Below are positions 19,408-63,521 of a stretch of DNA of 64,000 nt, piece after piece. The position numbers were made by a program, and so were the translations under genes. How positions within the stretch are numbered: the stretch's first letter is position 1; the number at the start of each line of letters is the position of its first letter. Source of the DNA: Chloroflexi bacterium TSY (GTDB taxonomy: Bacteria; Chloroflexota; Anaerolineae; Caldilineales; Caldilineaceae); NCBI GenBank assembly GCA_019217005.1, contig JAHBNG010000054.1, positions 26,838 to 90,837 of the forward strand, read 5' to 3'. The notes below the pieces were generated by a model. It saw only the letters and a list, made by a program, of their open reading frames with translations, was not told the DNA's origin and ran no database searches.

Positions 19408-21175
19408 ATGAAATTTCTTATCCGCATTTTTCCGTGCTCATCTGAGTCCTTTTTTCATGCCAGTGTATTTGGGTTAAGGAACACCAAATCAGCCGTCCAT
19501 TTTGCATTATTGATCTTTTTGAGCCTGGGTCTCCTCTATTCATCCTCTTGTCAACATATTGTGGCGCGAAATGGAGCAAATACCGTCCCTCGCTTTGGTC
19601 TTTTCGAGGGCACTCATCAGGCAGAGAATCTCCCCGACAATCCATACATCTCCATTGAGGCCTTTGCCATTGTCCAACGAGGTGCTCATAGCTGGGGAAC
19701 ACTCCCTCTCTTTTGGGATGGTGGAACCACGTGGAAGCTGCGTATCAGCCCAGACTGCATGCAGGCAGAGACATGGACCTATACAATTAGCGCCAATGAT
19801 CGTGGGCTAGATGGTCAAACAGGCTCTTTTGTCTGTATACCTACCCCCAATCCAGGTAATCGGGGTAGCTTTGTGGTTATGCAGAGCCATCCACACCATT
19901 TTCAGTATCAGAATGGTGATCGAGTCTGGTGGTTTGGCGACACAAATTGGGATGCATTTGCCAACAACGCATTCGAGAACCTCAACCGCCAGACCTTTGA
20001 GCAATATATTGATCGGCGGGCGGCCCAAGGTTTTAACTATATTCATACCCATATCTTGACACCAAACTCAGCTGGTGGCCCCATCGGTGTGATTGCACTC
20101 CCTGACGAGAGGTTAAATCTGGCTTACTTTCAGGAAGCTGACGTTCGCCTCAATTACATCAATCGTAAAGGGATTGCTGTTGGCATGGGGAGGTGAGGAT
20201 GATCCCAATTGGACCGATTTCCCCTCGGATGAAGCAAGACGACGCTTTGCGCGATATATCTCTGCTCGCTACAGCGCTTATCGGACGGCTTTAGTCGTTT
20301 CTGGGGAATGGAACAAGGGCTCCAATGGCTCGCTCAAGGCCAGTTACATATCGATCGGGGATGAACTGCAAACGTATAATCTCCACAACCGGCTGATTAT
20401 GATTCATCCATCCGCAACAGCCCCGGCAGAAGGATCCGTGGACGAATTTAATGTGGAGTCGAGCTGGATGTCTCTAGCAGATTATCAACAATATTATGGG
20501 AACGCACCGCTCGAATCAACTGCCAACAGCAACCATCGTCGCAATCTCTATGATGAATTGATGCGGGCTAAAAGTCAGCATAACAAACCGGTCGTCAATG
20601 CGGAATATGCCTACTTTTTGCGTGATCGGAACGGTGATGGCACAGTGGATAAGCGCAATTCCCATACCCGTACAACCTTTCGCAGAGCATCTTGGTCAAT
20701 TGCCATATCTGGAGGCTATTTTGTGACCGGATTTGGCAATACCTACCATGGTGGTGTCAATCACATCGATTCCTCGCACCCCGAACACAATGATTACCTC
20801 CGAGCGGAACAAGATCTCATGCGACTCCATGAGTTTTTTACGCAGACAGGCGTTGCATGGTGGACACTCACGGCTCGTCCAGATCTGGTATCCGGCGATA
20901 CTCGCTATGCATTAGCCAACCCAATACAGGGAGTTTATCTAGTCTATACAGAAGGGGTGGAATCAACAGAATTAGATCTAGGAACATCCAGCGAACGCAT
21001 ATACAGCGTCAAACGTTACAACCCTCGCAACGGTCTCTACACCACTTTGAACAATCATGTCGGTCCTGACCCACTTGAATTGGTGTCGCCGGATATACAA
21101 GATTGGGCCTACTTGATCACCCCCATATCTCTTGGACTGAACCACGAACTGTTTATCCCGATCCTTCAGCGATGA
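19408..21175 (+). pseudogene. Secreted DUF5060/DUF4038 glycosidase-like protein, one frameshift
   Basis: The first frame (19408-20196) has a signal segment (HFALLIFLSLGLLYSSSC, perhaps a lipoprotein), a DUF5060-like beta domain and the start of a TIM-barrel DUF4038 domain (WWFGDTNWDAFANNAFENLNRQTFEQYI). It breaks in ...NRKGIAVGMGR. The second frame continues the barrel from LLLAWGGEDDPNWTDF to the end, including SGEWNKGSNG and VVNAEYAY, then a collagen-binding-like domain and tail LFIPILQR. One extra base in AAAGGGA near 20169-20175 explains the break and would restore NRKGLLLAWGGEDD. The family includes apiosidase-like glycoside hydrolases, so polysaccharide cleavage is the likely role. Real inactivation or a sequence error are both possible. 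Confidence 0.75.
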
Positions 21176-27112: not shown

Positions 27113-27387
27113 GGTTCTGTGACGTTTTGTGGGGTAGATGTTGGATAGTTTATTGGTTTGCTGGTTTGTTTACCAACTATCTGGGGTGGTTCATTTTAGC
27201 TGGATAGATAGGTTTACACTTTTAGAAACAGAAAGAACGTTTATATTCTCTGATTTCGCCGGTTCTCAGAGAGAAAACGGTCTCATATAGATTTTTGTCT
27301 ATATATCAAAAGTGTAAACCTAATTTTGAACCACCCCAACTATCTAACCAACAAACCACCTGAAAACACACAATTCCTCAGACAACC
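27113..27387. repeat. Family C palindromic repeat, interrupted by the 155-bp element
   Basis: Flanks GGTTCTGTGACGTTTTGTGGGG and CACACAATTCCTCAGACAACC align with 14291-14402. The 155-bp insert and one 8-bp duplication must be removed to restore the repeat. It gives a filled site to compare with the empty copy. Confidence 0.75.
27183..27337. mobile_element. 155-bp miniature element (MITE), copy 2
   Basis: I see no difference from the copy at 7817. Flanked by the 8-bp direct repeat AACTATCT. Inserted inside the family C repeat upstream of the selenoprotein-like gene. Confidence 0.93.
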
Positions 27388-27422: not shown

Positions 27423-28220
27423 ATGACAAACACATTCATGGACATTTTAGAGAATCGAGATTCATGGCTAGCCGAATTCGAAGATGGCTGGCTTAAACAC
27501 TATTGGGACACAGGCGAAATCGCCTGGAAACTCTACAATCTGCCACGCAATCAACATGCACCTGCTGGTAAAGGTGTGGATCTGCGCAAAAGCCGCCTAA
27601 TGCTCATCTCGTCAGCAGGTGGGTACTTAAAGGACAGACAGGAGCCATTTGACGCCACAGACGATCTAGGCGACTACACCATCCGCACCTTTCCCTCGAC
27701 CACTCAACCCGAGCAGATTTCCTTTGCCCACGAGCATTATGACCATACGGCCGTCAATGCTGATCAGCAAGTTCTCTTTCCGCTGGCTCACCTGCATGAG
27801 CGAGTGGCGGCAGGCGCAATCGGCGAGCTTGCATCTGTGGTCAACTTTATGGGGTACCAACCAGTGGCGACACGCGTTGTGGATGAAACGATCCCTGCCA
27901 TTTTAGACGTGACCAAACAGGAGCAGGTCGACGCTGCGCTACTCGTTCCTGCCTGACCAATCTGTTCTCAGTCCGTGGGACTGATTGCACGTGCATTGGA
28001 GATGGAAGGCATCGCCACAACATTGACCAGTTGGAATGCAGGGCGCACTCGCGTCACCATGCCGCCCCGGGCCACCTTCACCCGCCTGGCACGTGGCGCC
28101 ACGCTCGGTCAACCCCACGATGTGGCCCAGCAGCGACGCATATTGGATGCCACGCTGGCGCTGTTGGCGGATGATGCACCGCAGAAGCCAGTGATGCTAG
28201 CGGAAGTGTATGAAGAATAA
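27423..28220 (+). CDS. GrdB/PrdB-family reductase-like protein, in-frame TGA (possible selenocysteine)
   Basis: Related to the selenoprotein B family of glycine/sarcosine/betaine and D-proline reductases. The frame from ATG 27423 meets TGA at codon 178, then continues without change of frame for 88 codons to TAA. The context is LLVPA-TGA-PICSQSVGLIARALEMEGI; this is the site where family members carry selenocysteine or cysteine, followed by Cys at plus 3 (UxxC). A hairpin starting 12 bases after the TGA could act as the insertion signal. Without recoding, the product would stop at 177 residues and lose the redox site. Total length 265 codons is close to PrdB. If selenocysteine is not made, this is a pseudogene. 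No reductase partner genes are adjacent. Confidence 0.78.
27954..27987 (+). promoter_or_regulatory. Candidate bacterial SECIS hairpin
   Basis: After TGA (27954-27956), CAGTCC (27969-27974) and GGACTG (27978-27983) form a perfect 6-bp stem with loop GTG. Flanking CAAT/ATTG can extend it across a bulge. The loop begins 18 bases after the TGA and has G at its first position, in the range described for bacterial selenocysteine insertion elements. Confidence 0.55.
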
Positions 28221-28324
28221 AGCAATCATAGTTGAGGCTGCGACCTCATTCGGATGATGGGGTATTGAATATTGCGTAATACTAGCTGAGGTCTTGGTTA
28301 TCTGCTGTATTTACCGGGCAGAAA

Positions 28325-28530
28325 GTTGCAGGATTTGGGTTGGTATTCTGCGTACAGCAACAAGGTCAGTTTCAAGTATACGTGGTTCGTGACGCAAACG
28401 GGAACGAATCTCTCTTTATGCAGAGGTAGTAAGTTTGGATGCACTCTATGTGGTCATTGATCTCACCAAGCAGCGCTTGCAGCTGTGGCAAGTCGGGATG
28501 GTCGAGTTCCGTGACAAGATTGATGACGAT
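28325..28530 (+). pseudogene. Decayed duplicate of the downstream immunity-like gene
   Basis: Nucleotides about 28335-28450 match 29105-29230 closely (GGTCAGTTTCAAGTATACGT and neighbours) but have frameshifts and substitutions. The next 70 bases match the sequence after the intact gene (29375-29440, CAAGTCGGGATGG). So the duplication included gene and 3' flank. No complete frame remains. Confidence 0.7.
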
Positions 28531-28633: not shown

Positions 28634-28957
28634 GTGAGTGCTGACGATATTATTTGGGCGCCACATAGATATAAGCACTTTGCATCAACCAGATTATCAT
28701 GGGCTGAGATTGTGCATTCTACAACAAGAGGGCCAGCAAAATACTTGCCGAGGACAGACGTTGAAGCATTAGAGCGAGAAGTATGGAGTAATGGAATACC
28801 AACGACAAACGATAGGCCGTGGAGGGTAATGGAGTTTGATCGTATAATCGGTGCCAGTGCGGGCAGTGAGAGCCGGTGGGTACGCGTTGAGCAGAGTAGC
28901 AGCACAATTCATGGACACCCCATCACGCAGCAGCAGTATGAAAGGTTAACCCGATGA
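28634..28957 (+). CDS. Small protein, possible toxin-domain fragment
   Basis: 107 residues, not assigned to a family. The GTG start has GGAG 7 bases upstream. Polar, no membrane segment; contains IIWAPHRYKHFAS, AEIVHSTTRGPAKYLP and ASAGSESRWVRVEQSSSTIHGHP. The size, the histidines and the position just before a small gene overlapping by ATGA suggest the C-terminal toxin domain of a polymorphic toxin cut off from its delivery part. A degraded copy of the partner gene upstream supports this, since such loci often keep extra immunity copies. The toxin activity itself is inferred from context only. Confidence 0.55.
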   Translation: MSADDIIWAPHRYKHFASTRLSWAEIVHSTTRGPAKYLPRTDVEALEREVWSNGIPTTNDRPWRVMEFDRIIGASAGSESRWVRVEQSSSTIHGHPITQQQYERLTR

Positions 28958-29286
28958 CATTAGAAAAGATTTCGGAGAAAATAGATTTTTTGCCAGGCAG
29001 TGTTGTCTACGAAGAGTTAGCCCTTGATAATGAACTGACATTGGCTGACCAAGTCGACCGCCTGAACGAAGATCTGCTGCAAGTAGAATTCCCAGGCAAG
29101 GTGCTGCTGGATTTGGGTTGGTATCCTGCATTCAGCAACCAAGGTCAGTTTCAAGTATACGTGGTTCGTGACGCAAACTGGGACGAACCTCTCTTTTATG
29201 CAGAGGTAGCAAGTTTGGACGTACTCTATTCGGTCTTGGAGGCAGCACGGCGAACGGCAGCGGAAGCTGCCATGGTCGCTGTCTAG
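28954..29286 (+). CDS. Small acidic protein, possible immunity partner
   Basis: 110 residues, acidic, soluble, starting within the stop of the preceding gene (ATGA overlap), which implies translational coupling. Sequence features are ADQVDRLNEDLLQVEFPGKVLLDLGWYP and FQVYVVRDANWDEPLFYAEVASLDVLYSVLEAA. A mutated duplicate of its second half lies about 770 bp upstream. Acidic proteins of this size paired with a small basic partner are common immunity proteins. No recognised family. Confidence 0.6.
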   Translation: MTLEKISEKIDFLPGSVVYEELALDNELTLADQVDRLNEDLLQVEFPGKVLLDLGWYPAFSNQGQFQVYVVRDANWDEPLFYAEVASLDVLYSVLEAARRTAAEAAMVAV

Positions 29287-33188: not shown

Positions 33189-35344
33189 TCAGTAGATCCA
33201 AATTCTCGCGGAGAAGGCGTTCTCTATTACACGCAGTAGGCCAAAAAAGGGGTAAAATAGCCCTAGGAGGCCAAAATGAACCAAGAATTTAGCGCCGCAG
33301 TAACAGGATTCTGTGCCCATGTGAGAATGCTTTCTCCGCAAAGCGAAACTGTAAAACATTACGAAAGTGACCTAAATCAATTTGGCCAGGTGATAGAAAA
33401 AAGGCCAAGAGAGATAGGTCGCCAAGAGATAACGACGTTTGTAACGGCGCAACTCGAAGCGGGGATGAGCAGTGCGACGGTCAATCGCAGAGTGGCAACG
33501 TTGAGCCGATTTTTCGACTACTTGGCGGATGAGGCAGAAGACGAAAGCTGGTCAAACCCGGTGGTGTGGCGTCTACACCGACTGGATACAGGTTGCCATC
33601 TTCCCAGAGATATAGCGGAACGCATCGTCCGCCAGTTATGGGGGGAGCGTGAGTCAAGGTCAGATAAGAGACCAAGTGATGTTGGCCTTGATGCTCGACG
33701 TTGGCCTGCGGGTGGGCGAAGTGTCGAAACTAGAGATGGGCGATATTGAAGCTGCCATAAATCCGGACGAACTGTGGTCACTGCGCGTACGCGGCAAAGG
33801 GAACAAAGAGCGTCGAGTCTGGTTGACGCCAGAAACCACAGCGCTGTTGGTGAGCTATATGGATGAGCGTCCTGATGCAGTCGATAGCCATCTGTTTCTG
33901 ACTCGTCGTCACAAAGGCATCAGTGTCCGCGGAATCCAGGAGCGCCTCGATTATTACCGTCAGCAAGCCGGACTCTCCGAGAACGAGGTCTCCTGTCATC
34001 GCCTGCGCCATACCTTCGCCAGACGAATGGCAGAGTCGCGTATGCCACTGCCTAGTCTCTCTCATTGGTTGGGTCACAGTCAATTGAAAACGACCCAGAT
34101 TTACATCGATGGTGCCAATCCTGATATGCGAGCCGACTATGAAGCTGCTATGGAGCAGTTGTCTCGCCAAGCCGCATGCTCGGATATTGAAGGAACGACA
34201 TCTGCAATAGAGACAGAGAATACTGTGCCTTCTGAACATCGCACAGTGGAGCCAGCTGTTGGCATCTGTTTGTCTGCTGATGAGATCCGTCAACGTCTCA
34301 CCTCATTGCCGCTCTGGCTTCATCAACCCATCATCTCATTACTTCTCCACCAGCAATTACGCTGGAAAGCCCTCTATCGGCGGGAACGAGCCCTTCAGTG
34401 GCTTGGCGAACTCCAACGCGGTTGGCAATGGATGCTCGACCAGCGCATGCTCTCCAGCTTATCCGAACTAAGACGGCGCGATCTCCAAGACTACATCACC
34501 CACCTATGTGACTTAGAGTATTCCGTCCATACCATCAATCATTTTATTTGTACCCTCAAGTGTTTTCTGCATTTTGCTGAAGAATGTGGCCAGTCGATCG
34601 CTCCGGCTTTATATCGCATTCAACGTCTCAAACGACCCACTACCTTACCTCGTCCGTTGCGCCAGCATGAATTTGCTCAACTTGAACAGTTCGTCTTAAA
34701 CTCAACGGCTCAGAGCCTTTCTCCTTCCGACCTCCTTGACCGTGCTTGGTTTCTTATTCTGGTTGATGCTGGGCTACGTATGGGCGAAGTGCAAGCTCTG
34801 CTCGTTCGAGATGCCAAATCCCATCGTGACCGTCGGTTGCCTGTTACCCAACGCACTGCTCTTGCCATCGATGCCCATCTGCAACATCGCACCGATGACC
34901 TGGCTACTCATTCCCCGCTTTTACTACGCGATGGCTTACCTCTTCGAGCCAATTATGTGCGCAACCATCTTCATGCCTTTGCCGCCCAAGCTAACTTAGA
35001 GGGCGTCACTCCTCATCGCTTGCGCCATACCTTTGCCACCCGTTTGCTCAACAGTGGCCTTATGCCCATCACTACCTTGCAGAAACTCATGGGGCACACT
35101 CATATCGATACCACCATGCTTTATGCACAGCTCTACGATGAAACCATTCAGCAGCATTATTTAGCCGCTATGGCTTCACATTCTGTTTACGCTATCCCTG
35201 AACCTGACCCCGCTATTTGGGGTCCCACTTTGGAGAATGCCTTTGAATCAACTTTTCAACAGCAACCACTTTAACTTTTATGTCTACTGCGTGTAATCTC
35301 TAATGCTACCTCTGCGGATAAAAGGCACATTTTGGATCTACTGA
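33189..35344 (+). mobile_element. Tyrosine-recombinase mobile element with inverted ends
   Basis: The outer inverted ends TCAGTAGATCCAAA (33189-33202) and TTTGGATCTACTGA (35331-35344) match perfectly over 14 bp. Inner inverted blocks ATTACACGCAGTAG (33226-33239) and CTACTGCGTGTAAT (35284-35297) also match perfectly. The single gene between them encodes two joined tyrosine recombinases. Inner blocks may be recombinase binding sites. No obvious direct repeat at the flanks. The right end abuts the DUF58 gene, about 20 bp before its ATG. Confidence 0.75.
33276..35274 (+). pseudogene. Tandem double tyrosine recombinase, one frameshift
   Basis: Two complete phage-integrase catalytic domains in one frame. 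Domain 1 has GLRVGEVSKL, HRLRHTFARR, WLGHSQLKTTQIYI; domain 2 has GLRMGEVQALL, HRLRHTFATR, LMGHTHIDTTMLYAQL. Both therefore keep the Arg, HxxR, His and Tyr residues needed for cleavage. Each is preceded by a SAM-like DNA-binding region. The first 125 or so residues (MNQEFSAAVTGFCAHVRML...) are in another frame; the shift falls in the G6 run at 33640-33645, where ...VRQLWG can pass to SVSQGQIRDQ. Repaired, the protein would be about 665 residues. This may be a recent mutation, programmed slippage or a sequence error. ATG 33276 has TAGGAGG upstream. Confidence 0.82.
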
Positions 35345-51723: not shown

Positions 51724-52177
51724 TTATATATCCCAAATCACGTTCAATGCCTGCGGTTTTCGGAAGACGAGCCCGCGTGGCTTGGCGGCTTGGGACGCGC
51801 GCTCGGTTGTTTCCAGCCGCACGTTTTTGAGGCGCACAAGAATTTGCTCCAGCGCAAAGTGAGCTTCCAGTCGTGCCAGATGTAAGCCCAGGCAGACGTG
51901 TGGTCCTTGCGCAAAGGCCACGTGAGAGCGCAAATTTTGCCGCTCTGGATCGAAGCGATCCGGAGCGGCAAAGACCGTTGGATCGCGGTTGGCCCCTGCC
52001 AGAGAAACCCGCACCAGATCGCTGGCTTTGATCGACGCTTCGCCTAACTGAACGTCGCTTACGGCATAGCGATCGACAACGGCTGCGGCTGGCTCCATGC
52101 GCAGGGATTCTTCGACCACAGCCGGTATGACAGATGGAGCGGAGCATACAGAGGTCAAAAGAGCTGAATCAGTTAGA
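51724..52177 (-). pseudogene. Cytochrome P450, C-terminal part (split by IS)
   Basis: Contains the K-helix ExxR motif (VVEESLRMEPAA), PDRFDPER of the meander region, and the heme-binding loop FAQGPHVCLGLHLARLEA with the axial cysteine. Together with 53670-54437 it forms a full bacterial P450 of about 405 residues. Removing the IS and one TAGA duplication joins ...ALYFLLTDSALLTSV... exactly in frame. A product starting at the internal ATG 52158 would lack oxygen-binding helix I and could not work. Confidence 0.87.
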
Positions 52178-59989: not shown

Positions 59990-62900
59990 TTACGCTTTTT
60001 GCAACCCGACCGTAATTTCATCTTCCCCTAATTTGAAGCTGACCTGCTCGACGCCAGCAGGAGTAGCTCCGTTCACCTCCAAGCTGGTGGCCAATGTCTC
60101 CTCTTGTACATAGTCGCCAAAGCCAGCTAGTACTTCATTGACCAAGGCTGTGTCAGAGACAGAGAGCGCGATGCGGTCGCTGATCTCCAAACCCGCATCT
60201 TTGCGCAACTGCTGGATGCGACGTACCAATTCTCGGGCATGTCCCTCGCTTTCTAACTCAGGCGTCAGCTGTGTCGTGACGGCCACAAGATAACCACCAT
60301 CTTGCGCCACACTGAACCCTTCGCGCGGCGTGCTGCGGACTTCCACATCATCTGGCTCGATAGTGTATGTTTCTCCTTCAGCATTCAACTCGACCGTCTC
60401 ACCCGCCTGAAATCGCCCCGCCAATTCGAGTTGGTCCATGCTGCCCATCAGCTTGCGGATTACTGGATATCCCCTCCCATATTTCTGTCCCAACTGTTTC
60501 GGGAACGGGAAGACCTCCACATCGACCAAATTGCTGGTGCCATCTGCAAACATCAATTCCTTGACGTTGAGTTCGTCCAGAACCAAAGTTTGGAGCCGCT
60601 CTAAGCTGGTCTGCTCTTCTGGCTGACGGGTACGAACTACGACCCGGGCCAGTGGTTGACGGACCTTGAGATTGCCTGCTTGACGGGCGGCATGGCCCAA
60701 GCTTGTCACTTTTTGGACAACAGCCATATCGGCGCTTAACTGCTCATCCATGCGTACCTCACTGGCTTCAGGCCAGCGGCTCAGATGGACACTATCTGGC
60801 TCTGTTTCATCCAGGTTGCGCACGAGGTTGACGTAGATTTCATCGGCCACAAACGGTGTGGCTGGCGCCAGCAGTTTGCTGAGCGTCACCAATACTTGAT
60901 AGAGCGTATTGAGCGCAGCTGGATCACTTTCCCAGAAACGACGGCGACTCAAGCGCACATACCAGTTGCTGACATCATCAACGAAGGTGGCGACAGGGCG
61001 AGTTGCGCCAAGAACATCATAGGTCTCATATGCCTCGGTCACGTTGCGGACCAGCATATTCAGCTCAGACAACATCCAGCGATCAAGTAAATGATCAGAT
61101 TGCTCCGCTTCGTTACTGCTGGGTGTCCACCCTTCGCTCAAGTTGGCATAGGTTACGAAGAAACTATAGGTATTCCACAAAGTGTTCATGAATTTACGTA
61201 CCGTCTCGGCGACCAAGTTCATGCTGAAGCGACGGCTGTTTCCTGGCGGACTGGCGGTGTACATGTTCCAACGCGTTGCATCGGCTCCGTGCGTGCTAAA
61301 CGCTTCCCACGGATCAACCACATTGCCCTTGGATTTGCTCATTTTGCTGCCATCTTCGGCCAGGATGTGGCCCAAGCAGATCACGTTTTTGTAGGCGGGC
61401 CGATCGTGCAAGAGTGTGCTGATGGCGTGAAGCGAATAGAACCAGCCGCGCGTCTGATCTACTGCTTCGCAGATGTAGTCGGCCTGCTGTTGTTCCTCCC
61501 ACATCTCTTGGTTCTCAAAAGGATAGTGCCATTGAGCGATTGGCATCGCGCCACTGTCAAACCAGACATCGATCACCTCTGGCACACGCCGCATCACACC
61601 GCCATCAGGCGCATCCCAAGTGAGATCGTCGACAAAGGGACGATGCAGATCCACCTTGGAGACATCTATCCCCATGCGTTCGGCGAGTTCTTCGCGGCTG
61701 GCGATGCACTCCATGTAGGTGCTGCCGGGTGCATCACTTTTCCAGACAGGTAGAGGGGTGCCCCAGAAGCGCTCGCGTCCCAACGCCCAATCGATGTTGT
61801 TCTCTAGCCATTTGCCAAAGCGTCCACTCTTCACATGATCGGGCACCCAGTTGATCTGCTGGTTGTTGGCGACCAATTGATCTCTGTATTGGCTAGTTCG
61901 TACATACCAGGTTTCTTTCGCATAGTAAAGAAGTGGTGTCTCGCAGCGCCAGCAAAAGGGATAGGTATGTTCATAGGTTTCGCTTTTATAGAGCAAGTTG
62001 CGGCTGGCAAGCTCCTCTTCGATTTGCGGGTCTGCGTCTTTGACAAATGTGCCAGCCCAGGTCACTTCATCACGGAAAGTACCGTCAGGTTTGATTGTCA
62101 TGATGACGGGCAGATCATATTGGCGACCGACTTCCATGTCGTCAGCACCAAAAGCAGGTGCCATGTGGACGATGCCAGTCCCATCCGCCGTGCTGACGAA
62201 ATCAGCTGCTACGACGTAAGCATACTCTTTATCAACTTCAAGGAAGGTATAAAGAGGTTCGTAGTGCATGCCGACTAGATCCTTGCCGGTTAGAATCTCT
62301 AATACTTCATAATCTGGGCGCAGCACTTTTTCGGCCAGTTCTGAGGCTAAGTAGAGAAGGGCGCCACTCTCATCACGAACCTTTACATAACTGATCTTCT
62401 CACCCACGCCCAGGGCTGCGTTGCCAGGAAGCGTCCAGGGTGTTGTGGTCCAGGCAAGGAAGTAGGTGTTCTCTTGGTCTCTTACCTTAAACTTGACAAA
62501 GACGCTGGGATCTTTTGTTCCTTCTTTATAACCCAACGATAATTCGTGACTGCTCAGCGGTGTGCCACATCGAGGACAGTAGGGCACGACCTTGTACCCT
62601 TGATAGAGAAGCTCTTTCTCCCAAAATTGCTTCAAGATCCACCAGACCGATTCTACGTAATTGCTCTCCATAGTGACGTAGGCATCGTCCAGGTCAACCC
62701 AAAAGGCCATGCGTTCGGTGAGCCTTTCCCATTCATCAACATAGGTGAAAACAGAATCTTTGCAATGTTGATTAAACGCCTCCAGACCATAGGCTTCGAT
62801 CTGTTCTTTGCCCGTGATGCCAAGTTGCTTTTCGACTTCGATCTCTACTGGTAGACCGTGGGTGTCCCAGCCGCCTTTGCGTAGACAGTAGAATCCCTGC

Positions 62901-63136
62901 ATTGTTTTATAGCGGGGGAACATATCTTTGAACGCACGAGCCAACACGTGATGGATCCCAGGACGTCCATTGGCAGTGGGGGGGCCTTCAAAGAAGACAT
63001 AGCGTGGTCCATCTTTGCGTTCTTCCATGCTGCGGCGCAAGACATTTTTTTCGCGCCACATCTCCAATACTTTTTCCTCCATCTCTGGATAGTTGACGGA
63101 GGGAGAAACGTCAGAAAATTTGTTTTTTTGTTTCAT
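59990..63136 (-). CDS. ileS: Isoleucyl-tRNA synthetase, type 2
   Basis: Charges tRNA-Ile and edits valine. HIGH motif [10 protein letters not shown] near 60, KMSKS motif [11 protein letters not shown] near 600, and the editing domain between. [15 protein letters not shown] and the C-terminal organisation match the type 2 (eukaryote-like) class, which is generally insensitive to mupirocin. From ATG 63136 ([11 protein letters not shown]) it has 1048 residues; the frame is open further upstream, but that part is the T-box leader terminator. Control is by the T-box in front of it. Confidence 0.95.
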
Positions 63137-63480
63137 GATAATTGTTCCATAAGAATAAAAATAAACAACAAAAAACCCGCCCCCATATCGGGGACGGGCT
63201 TCAATCACAAGTCCGCGGTACCACCCCGGTTCCTGGCAAATTGCTGCACAATATACCAAGCACCTCTCTGCAGAGCCAACTGGTGAACCAGTCGAAAATT
63301 GTTGAGTCTGCCGTAACGATAACGTGTCACGAATCCGTCAGCGTCTACTCAATATACTTGGCTGTATACCTTTCGGGCTGCAACTCCGGAGGGATCTTCA
63401 GCGTTAGTTGATCAATCTGGCTTCCACCGTCCCAGAATCGCTGTATGACGCTCTAATGCCTACTCGTCTCCATCATCGTT
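63137..63480 (-). promoter_or_regulatory. T-box riboswitch leader of ileS
   Basis: On the minus strand the conserved T-box GGGGTGGTACCGCG (63227-63214) is followed by a terminator stem CCCGTCCCC/GGGGGCGGG and T6 (63198-63170). The T-box pairs with the 5' half of the competing stem. Upstream, AGTAG near 63460 and several stems form the stem I region, with ATC triplets that could be the specifier. Uncharged tRNA-Ile binding should allow read-through into ileS. Confidence 0.92.
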
Positions 63481-63521
63481 TTTTCATGTTGGGCAAAGTT
63501 TAACATTTTCCATAAAGTCTG

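Follow-up and report, generated by a model that had tools for sequence, protein, structure and literature searches.

We identified a PrdB/GrdB-like gene in which an in-frame TGA, at codon 178, is very probably decoded as selenocysteine, so that the gene gives one protein of 265 residues. The gene lies in the 64,000-nucleotide stretch of DNA analyzed here, which we call the window. An earlier reading of the window, made from the sequence only, had proposed a single 265-residue selenoprotein; a conserved TGA, a covarying hairpin, and the selenocysteine (Sec) machinery of relatives strongly support that proposal. The gene product would best be read as a stand-alone UxxC selenoenzyme. The features concerned are as follows.

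27423..28220, plus strand: PrdB/GrdB-like gene that would give 265 residues with selenocysteine at TGA codon 178
27954..27956, plus strand: in-frame TGA, codon 178, putative selenocysteine and first residue of the UxxC site
27963..27965, plus strand: codon 181, Cys, putative resolving cysteine of UxxC
27968..27984, plus strand: predicted SECIS hairpin with a 7-bp stem and a GUG loop, 18 nt from TGA to loop

An in-frame TGA and a covarying hairpin

Re-reading the frame from 27423 to 28220 confirmed the earlier observation of a TGA at codon 178 without a frame change on either side. The frame comprises 177 codons, the TGA, 87 further codons, and a TAA, and is unchanged throughout; the residues around codon 178 read LLVPA-TGA-PICSQSVGLI.

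A hairpin begins 12 nt past the UGA. Its perfect 6-bp stem (27969-27974 with 27978-27983) and its loop, which begins after 18 nt with G as the first base, are as the earlier reading described them, and U27968-A27984 adds a seventh pair. The bacterial SECIS model of PMC13188914 (Fig. 2 legend) has an apical loop of 3-9 nt on an upper stem of 4-16 bp, a G within the first two loop positions, 16-37 nt from UGA to the apical loop, and a minimum free energy (MFE) at or below -7.5 kcal/mol. Folding against this model, which had been suggested as a check, placed the window hairpin within all four limits: the loop is 3 nt (GUG), the stem 7 bp, the distance from UGA to the loop 18 nt, and the MFE -8.6 kcal/mol for the hairpin alone (-11.3 for the 38 nt after the TGA).

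By itself, the window hairpin is mildly unusual and is weak evidence, as 3.55% of synonymous recodings pair equally well, and its folding energy is not unusual (z-score of -0.46 versus dinucleotide shuffles). Forty-two places matching UxxCxxxxG yielded 38 distinct sequences, over which the hairpin is far from chance and covaries. Inner stem pairs were held in 227 of 228 cases (six pairs in 37 sequences, five in one), whereas sliding the 3' arm by 1-3 bases as a control left no more than 109 of 228. The mean number of pairs was 5.97 of 6, versus 3.88 after synonymous recoding. With numbering that starts at the T of TGA, two-sided changes are found in four pairs: 16-30 (CG/GC), 17-29 (AT/TA), 18-28 (GC/AT), and 19-27 (TA/GC/AT). 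The first loop base is G in all 38 distinct sequences. A separate branch, marked by UPDC and then N[VA]P, also has TGA at its nine loci; its predicted hairpin lies at a different position in seven of them, and the other two (L039 and L042) fold otherwise.

Conservation of the TGA codon and the residues beyond it

A scan of genome contigs, with one genome per species across 84,980 species, returned nine loci with a relative, eight of them labeled as Chloroflexota groups. Identity to these nine genome relatives is 57-73% by best segment. In all nine, the same codon is TGA, which is not chance, and the frame stays open beyond it. Profile scans gave the same picture in the class (13 places in 11 of 150 genomes) and in the order (31 places in 24 of 56 genomes), where each of the 13 and each of the 31 places has one internal stop, a TGA; both sets overlap with the nine relatives, some of which they include. 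The position of the TGA codon was checked directly for the motif-matched places of both scans, leaving out L033 and L035.

Residues C181, E193, R216, G229, and Q237 are invariant in an alignment of 49 rows (A2), and codon 181 is Cys in 97 of the 98 distinct full-length database homologs among the matches listed. At the level of the phylum, a sample of 301 genomes held 94 homologous places in 72 genomes. One TGA interrupts 81 of these places, more than one stop including TGA interrupts 2, and 8 have no stop; one TAG is found in 2 and one TAA in 1. In this sample, the TGA position was read directly only at fetched loci. Several genomes, G001, G004, G126, G170, G197, G441, and G480 among others, each have two or three different TGA-bearing PrdB-like paralogs.

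Selenocysteine machinery

The earlier reading had proposed a search for selA, selB, selD, and tRNA-Sec, and the nine relatives' genomes answered it largely in the affirmative. In all nine, selA is above the cut-off and tRNA-Sec above the gathering score; selB is above the cut-off in seven, with partial matches only in the remaining two. All nine also have selD, each copy with one in-frame TGA (G007 has its TGA on one of the gene's two contig pieces), so selD is a further client of the Sec system in these genomes. Inside the window we found no tRNA-Sec, and none of the 46 other window open reading frames (ORFs) picked (at least 90 amino acids [aa]; 46 of 46 scanned) matched selA, selB, or selD. 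Judging from its nine relatives, the organism of the window probably possesses the machinery and would itself decode UGA as selenocysteine.

In the class sample, selA is present in 130 of 150 genomes, including all 11 carriers of the gene; since it is so common in the class, its presence in all carriers is weak evidence alone. In the phylum sample, at a match threshold of E 1e-60, selA was found in 66 of the 72 genomes with a homolog. Three genomes (G293, G381, and G459) have a TGA-bearing homolog and no selA match at this threshold. Two of them, G381 and G459, have selB above the cut-off; G293 has neither, despite its TGA form. In G214, G336, and G419 the Cys form is the sole place, and neither selA nor selB is above the cut-off. 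Across genomes with the Cys form, selA is present in 7 of 10, so Cys forms do not track the loss of Sec machinery well.

Other residues at codon 178

The eight phylum places without a stop and the two with TAG encode Cys at the site and belong to a subfamily with the motif LTAG[U/C]PLCH. This subfamily has Cys in 10 fetched rows and TGA in 5 other fetched genomes, and Sec and Cys interleave on its tree, with four changes, at least three of them forced. In the window's own subfamily, the Cys form was not seen at codon 178 among the homologs examined.

A phmmer search gave 656 matches, and the best 120 consist of 116 proteins of 170-198 aa and 4 of full length. These four near homologs (47-61% identity) carry Ser, Gly, Asn, and Asn where the window gene has its TGA, and they group in a single supported clade within the window's subfamily, which suggests that Sec was lost there. 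The earlier reading had named close relatives with other residues as evidence that would count against it. Such relatives do exist, as these 4 of the 120 homologs listed, and we read them as cases of Sec loss. The homolog alignment that it had called for, to see Cys or Sec at codon 178, supports the selenoprotein reading: TGA is found in all nine genome relatives and Cys in another subfamily. The exchanges seen in the gene's own subfamily are only Ser, Gly, and Asn.

Among the matches listed, the 98 distinct full-length homologs (counted after removal of four duplicated rows) have Ser at position 178 in 90 cases, Cys in 3, Asn in 2, and Gly, Trp, and Asp in 1 each. A tree that included 60 of the 98 placed 52 of them in a single clade, distant from the Sec branches. 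P0124 and its clade make up a large PrdB-like group with Ser at the Sec position and the second Cys retained; in general, Cys is the more common replacement for Sec. The Trp of P0121 (PAWGLC) may come from a gene caller that translated a TGA as Trp.

Alternatives to selenocysteine at codon 178

If the TGA were a true stop, the functional product would have 177 residues, and the 87 codons downstream would be unused or form a second ORF from GTG 27975. Such an ORF, 27975-28220, does exist, and 122 of the 220 retrieved proteins among the matches listed, the window's own included, are shorter than 235 aa, with LVPS, LVPA, or FVPS as their last residues. We nevertheless consider a true stop very unlikely: the downstream frame is open in all nine relatives and carries the residues invariant over 49 rows, the AlphaFold2 model is confident through both halves, and another subfamily has Cys codons and reads straight through. 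With Sec at codon 178, the same 122 of 220 listed homologs instead expose a systematic annotation error, in that proteins annotated to end at the Sec codon have lost their active site. It is extremely improbable that the TGA arose by nonsense mutation or sequencing error in an ordinary gene with Cys or Trp at this codon. Errors or gene decay in this contig are possible, since two window genes look frameshifted (apiosidase-like, 19408-21175; integrase-like, 33276-35274), but the same TGA stands at the same codon in nine of nine other assemblies, and TGA is found at 83 of the 94 more distant places.

Family placement and the search for a partner gene

The protein scores just above the gathering cut-off of PF07355 (GRDB; 23.6 versus 22). 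Against the PrdB equivalog model TIGR04483 it reaches 103.3 bits, with a cut-off of 300 (E 1.3e-29, residues 53-250), and against TIGR01917, TIGR01918, NF040794, and NF040795 it reaches 23.6, 24.2, 30.6, and 28.2, with cut-offs of 602.2, 65.45, 800, and 775. The earlier assignment to a GrdB/PrdB type thus holds at the superfamily level (PF07355) and fails against the PrdB, GrdB, GrdF, and GrdH models. PF09338, which we take to be the pyruvoyl partner of the PrdA/GrdE type, was not found in any of the nine relatives' genomes, which are metagenome-assembled genomes (MAGs); the same search found it in 8 of the 301 phylum genomes. Because the PrdB and GrdB cut-offs are missed and PF09338 was not found in the relatives, the protein is very probably not PrdB or GrdB proper.

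We set the PF09338 table beside the homolog table for the phylum sample. None of the 76 highest-scoring homologs (117.7 bits and up) shares a contig with PF09338, versus 10 of the 18 lowest-scoring, which on this account look like true reductase subunits. In the window, none of the 46 other ORFs scanned is a partner gene, and no neighbor, transporter or other, is conserved beside the gene across the nine loci. Together with the search of the relatives, these results support the earlier view of a stand-alone protein.

It is highly unlikely that the protein serves a D-proline or glycine reductase as its selenium subunit, with the partners elsewhere in the genome. The similarity to TIGR04483 speaks for such a role, as do four phylum genomes (G272, G363, G422, and G459) that hold both a high-scoring homolog and a PF09338 gene, although on different contigs. 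The score far below the PrdB cut-off, the failure to find PF09338 in nine relatives by a search that does find it elsewhere in the phylum, and the lack of contig sharing among the 76 top-scoring homologs all argue against it. On balance, we think it more likely than not that a large PrdB-like branch, widespread in Chloroflexota, has separated from the reductases that depend on a pyruvoyl partner, and that its members act by themselves as Sec enzymes on a substrate not yet described. If this is true, many sequence-based annotations as PrdB or "selenoprotein B" refer to a different enzyme. Nine genomes in which PF09338 was not found thus carry selenoproteins akin to D-proline reductase, a group whose role can be tested.

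Predicted structure and possible chemistry

The AlphaFold2 model (pLDDT 96.2, pTM 0.93) has a strand at 171-175 and then a helix at 179-194. Sec178 would sit between the two, which would place Cys181 in the first turn of the helix. Structural matching of the model gave no match pointing to function.

In the most probable course of events, the hairpin downstream of the UGA recruits SelB carrying Sec-tRNA-Sec. In the finished protein, the Sec178 selenolate would most likely attack an oxidized or electrophilic substrate, with Cys181 resolving the product to a selenenyl sulfide and a donor of the thioredoxin kind regenerating the protein. We give this redox cycle of selenolate attack, resolution by Cys181, and a thioredoxin-like reductant an even chance of being right.

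Catalysis by GrdB and PrdB proceeds through attack on carbon. By analogy, the protein may cleave C-X bonds by nucleophilic attack instead of serving as a thiol or peroxide reductase; Sec would then act on an activated carbon (e.g., of an alpha-halo acid), as proposed for the GrdB-like FarB. We hold this to be possible but rather doubtful. In PMC10838667, the Sec of a GrdB relative is proposed to attack the C-F bond of fluoroacetate, but FarB is also proposed to work together with a GrdE-like partner, FarE, and we found no such partner in the nine relatives. Nor is a transporter or any other gene conserved beside the gene. Thiol/peroxide chemistry and attack on activated carbon are both candidates.

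Surroundings of the gene in the window

Near the gene are genes for an arginase-family protein, two aminotransferases, and an S49 peptidase. Just upstream, 27162-27358 has nested inverted repeats (32 nt at 75%, 15 nt perfect), like a small MITE-type element. Just before the small ORF 28954-29286, a diverged second copy of part of that ORF (28320-28440 and 29100-29225) looks by eye like a decayed duplicate. The apiosidase-like gene (PF13204) at 19408-21175 runs over two frames, covering profile positions 5-103 and 103-278, by frameshift or assembly error. The integrase-like gene at 33276-35274 is spread over two overlapping frames, with the N-terminal SAM-like domain in one and two catalytic stretches in the other. 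On the minus strand, a 144-aa ORF (51724-52158) is a fragment that aligns solely with the final third of cytochrome P450 (profile positions 325-455 of 462), and a T-box leader just above the gathering score (63187-63485) precedes the gene for a class I tRNA synthetase (59990-63259).

Comparison with known systems

Among the closest known systems is PrdB (TIGR04483), with which the protein shares homology over residues 53-250 and the UxxC motif, the latter as given in the tables of PMC13188914 and PMC9312934. It differs from PrdB in missing the cut-off, in the lack of a detected PF09338 partner in nine of nine relatives, and in having no conserved neighbor. With GrdB, GrdF, and GrdH (PF07355, TIGR01917, TIGR01918, NF040794, and NF040795) it shares a PF07355 score above the cut-off and, by the same tables (PMC13188914, PMC9312934), UxxC. 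Unlike them, it has 265 aa, aligns from about profile position 208 on, and falls far below the NCBIfam cut-offs, and no GrdE-type partner was found in the nine relatives. We found no description of a stand-alone PrdB-like branch without a pyruvoyl partner in the literature searched.

The "Proline reductase PrdB" sequences of the Sargasso Sea and GOS surveys can be set beside the protein by description, as they have UxxC and, in the GOS table, pfam07355 (PMC1088965, PMC2398784). The survey passages that we used count 42 and 235 PrdB sequences, place PrdB-type selenoproteins among the most abundant in marine surveys, and give the name PrdB without mention of a partner test (PMC1088965, PMC2398784). 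Direct relatives are already present at NCBI as "glycine/sarcosine/betaine reductase selenoprotein B family protein" from Chloroflexota MAGs (e.g., P0005, P0018, and P0019). These entries stop at 173 aa, which is the TGA, and so do not reach Sec, Cys181, or the C-terminal third. PrdB-type selenoproteins are thus already known, and the window gene adds a member.
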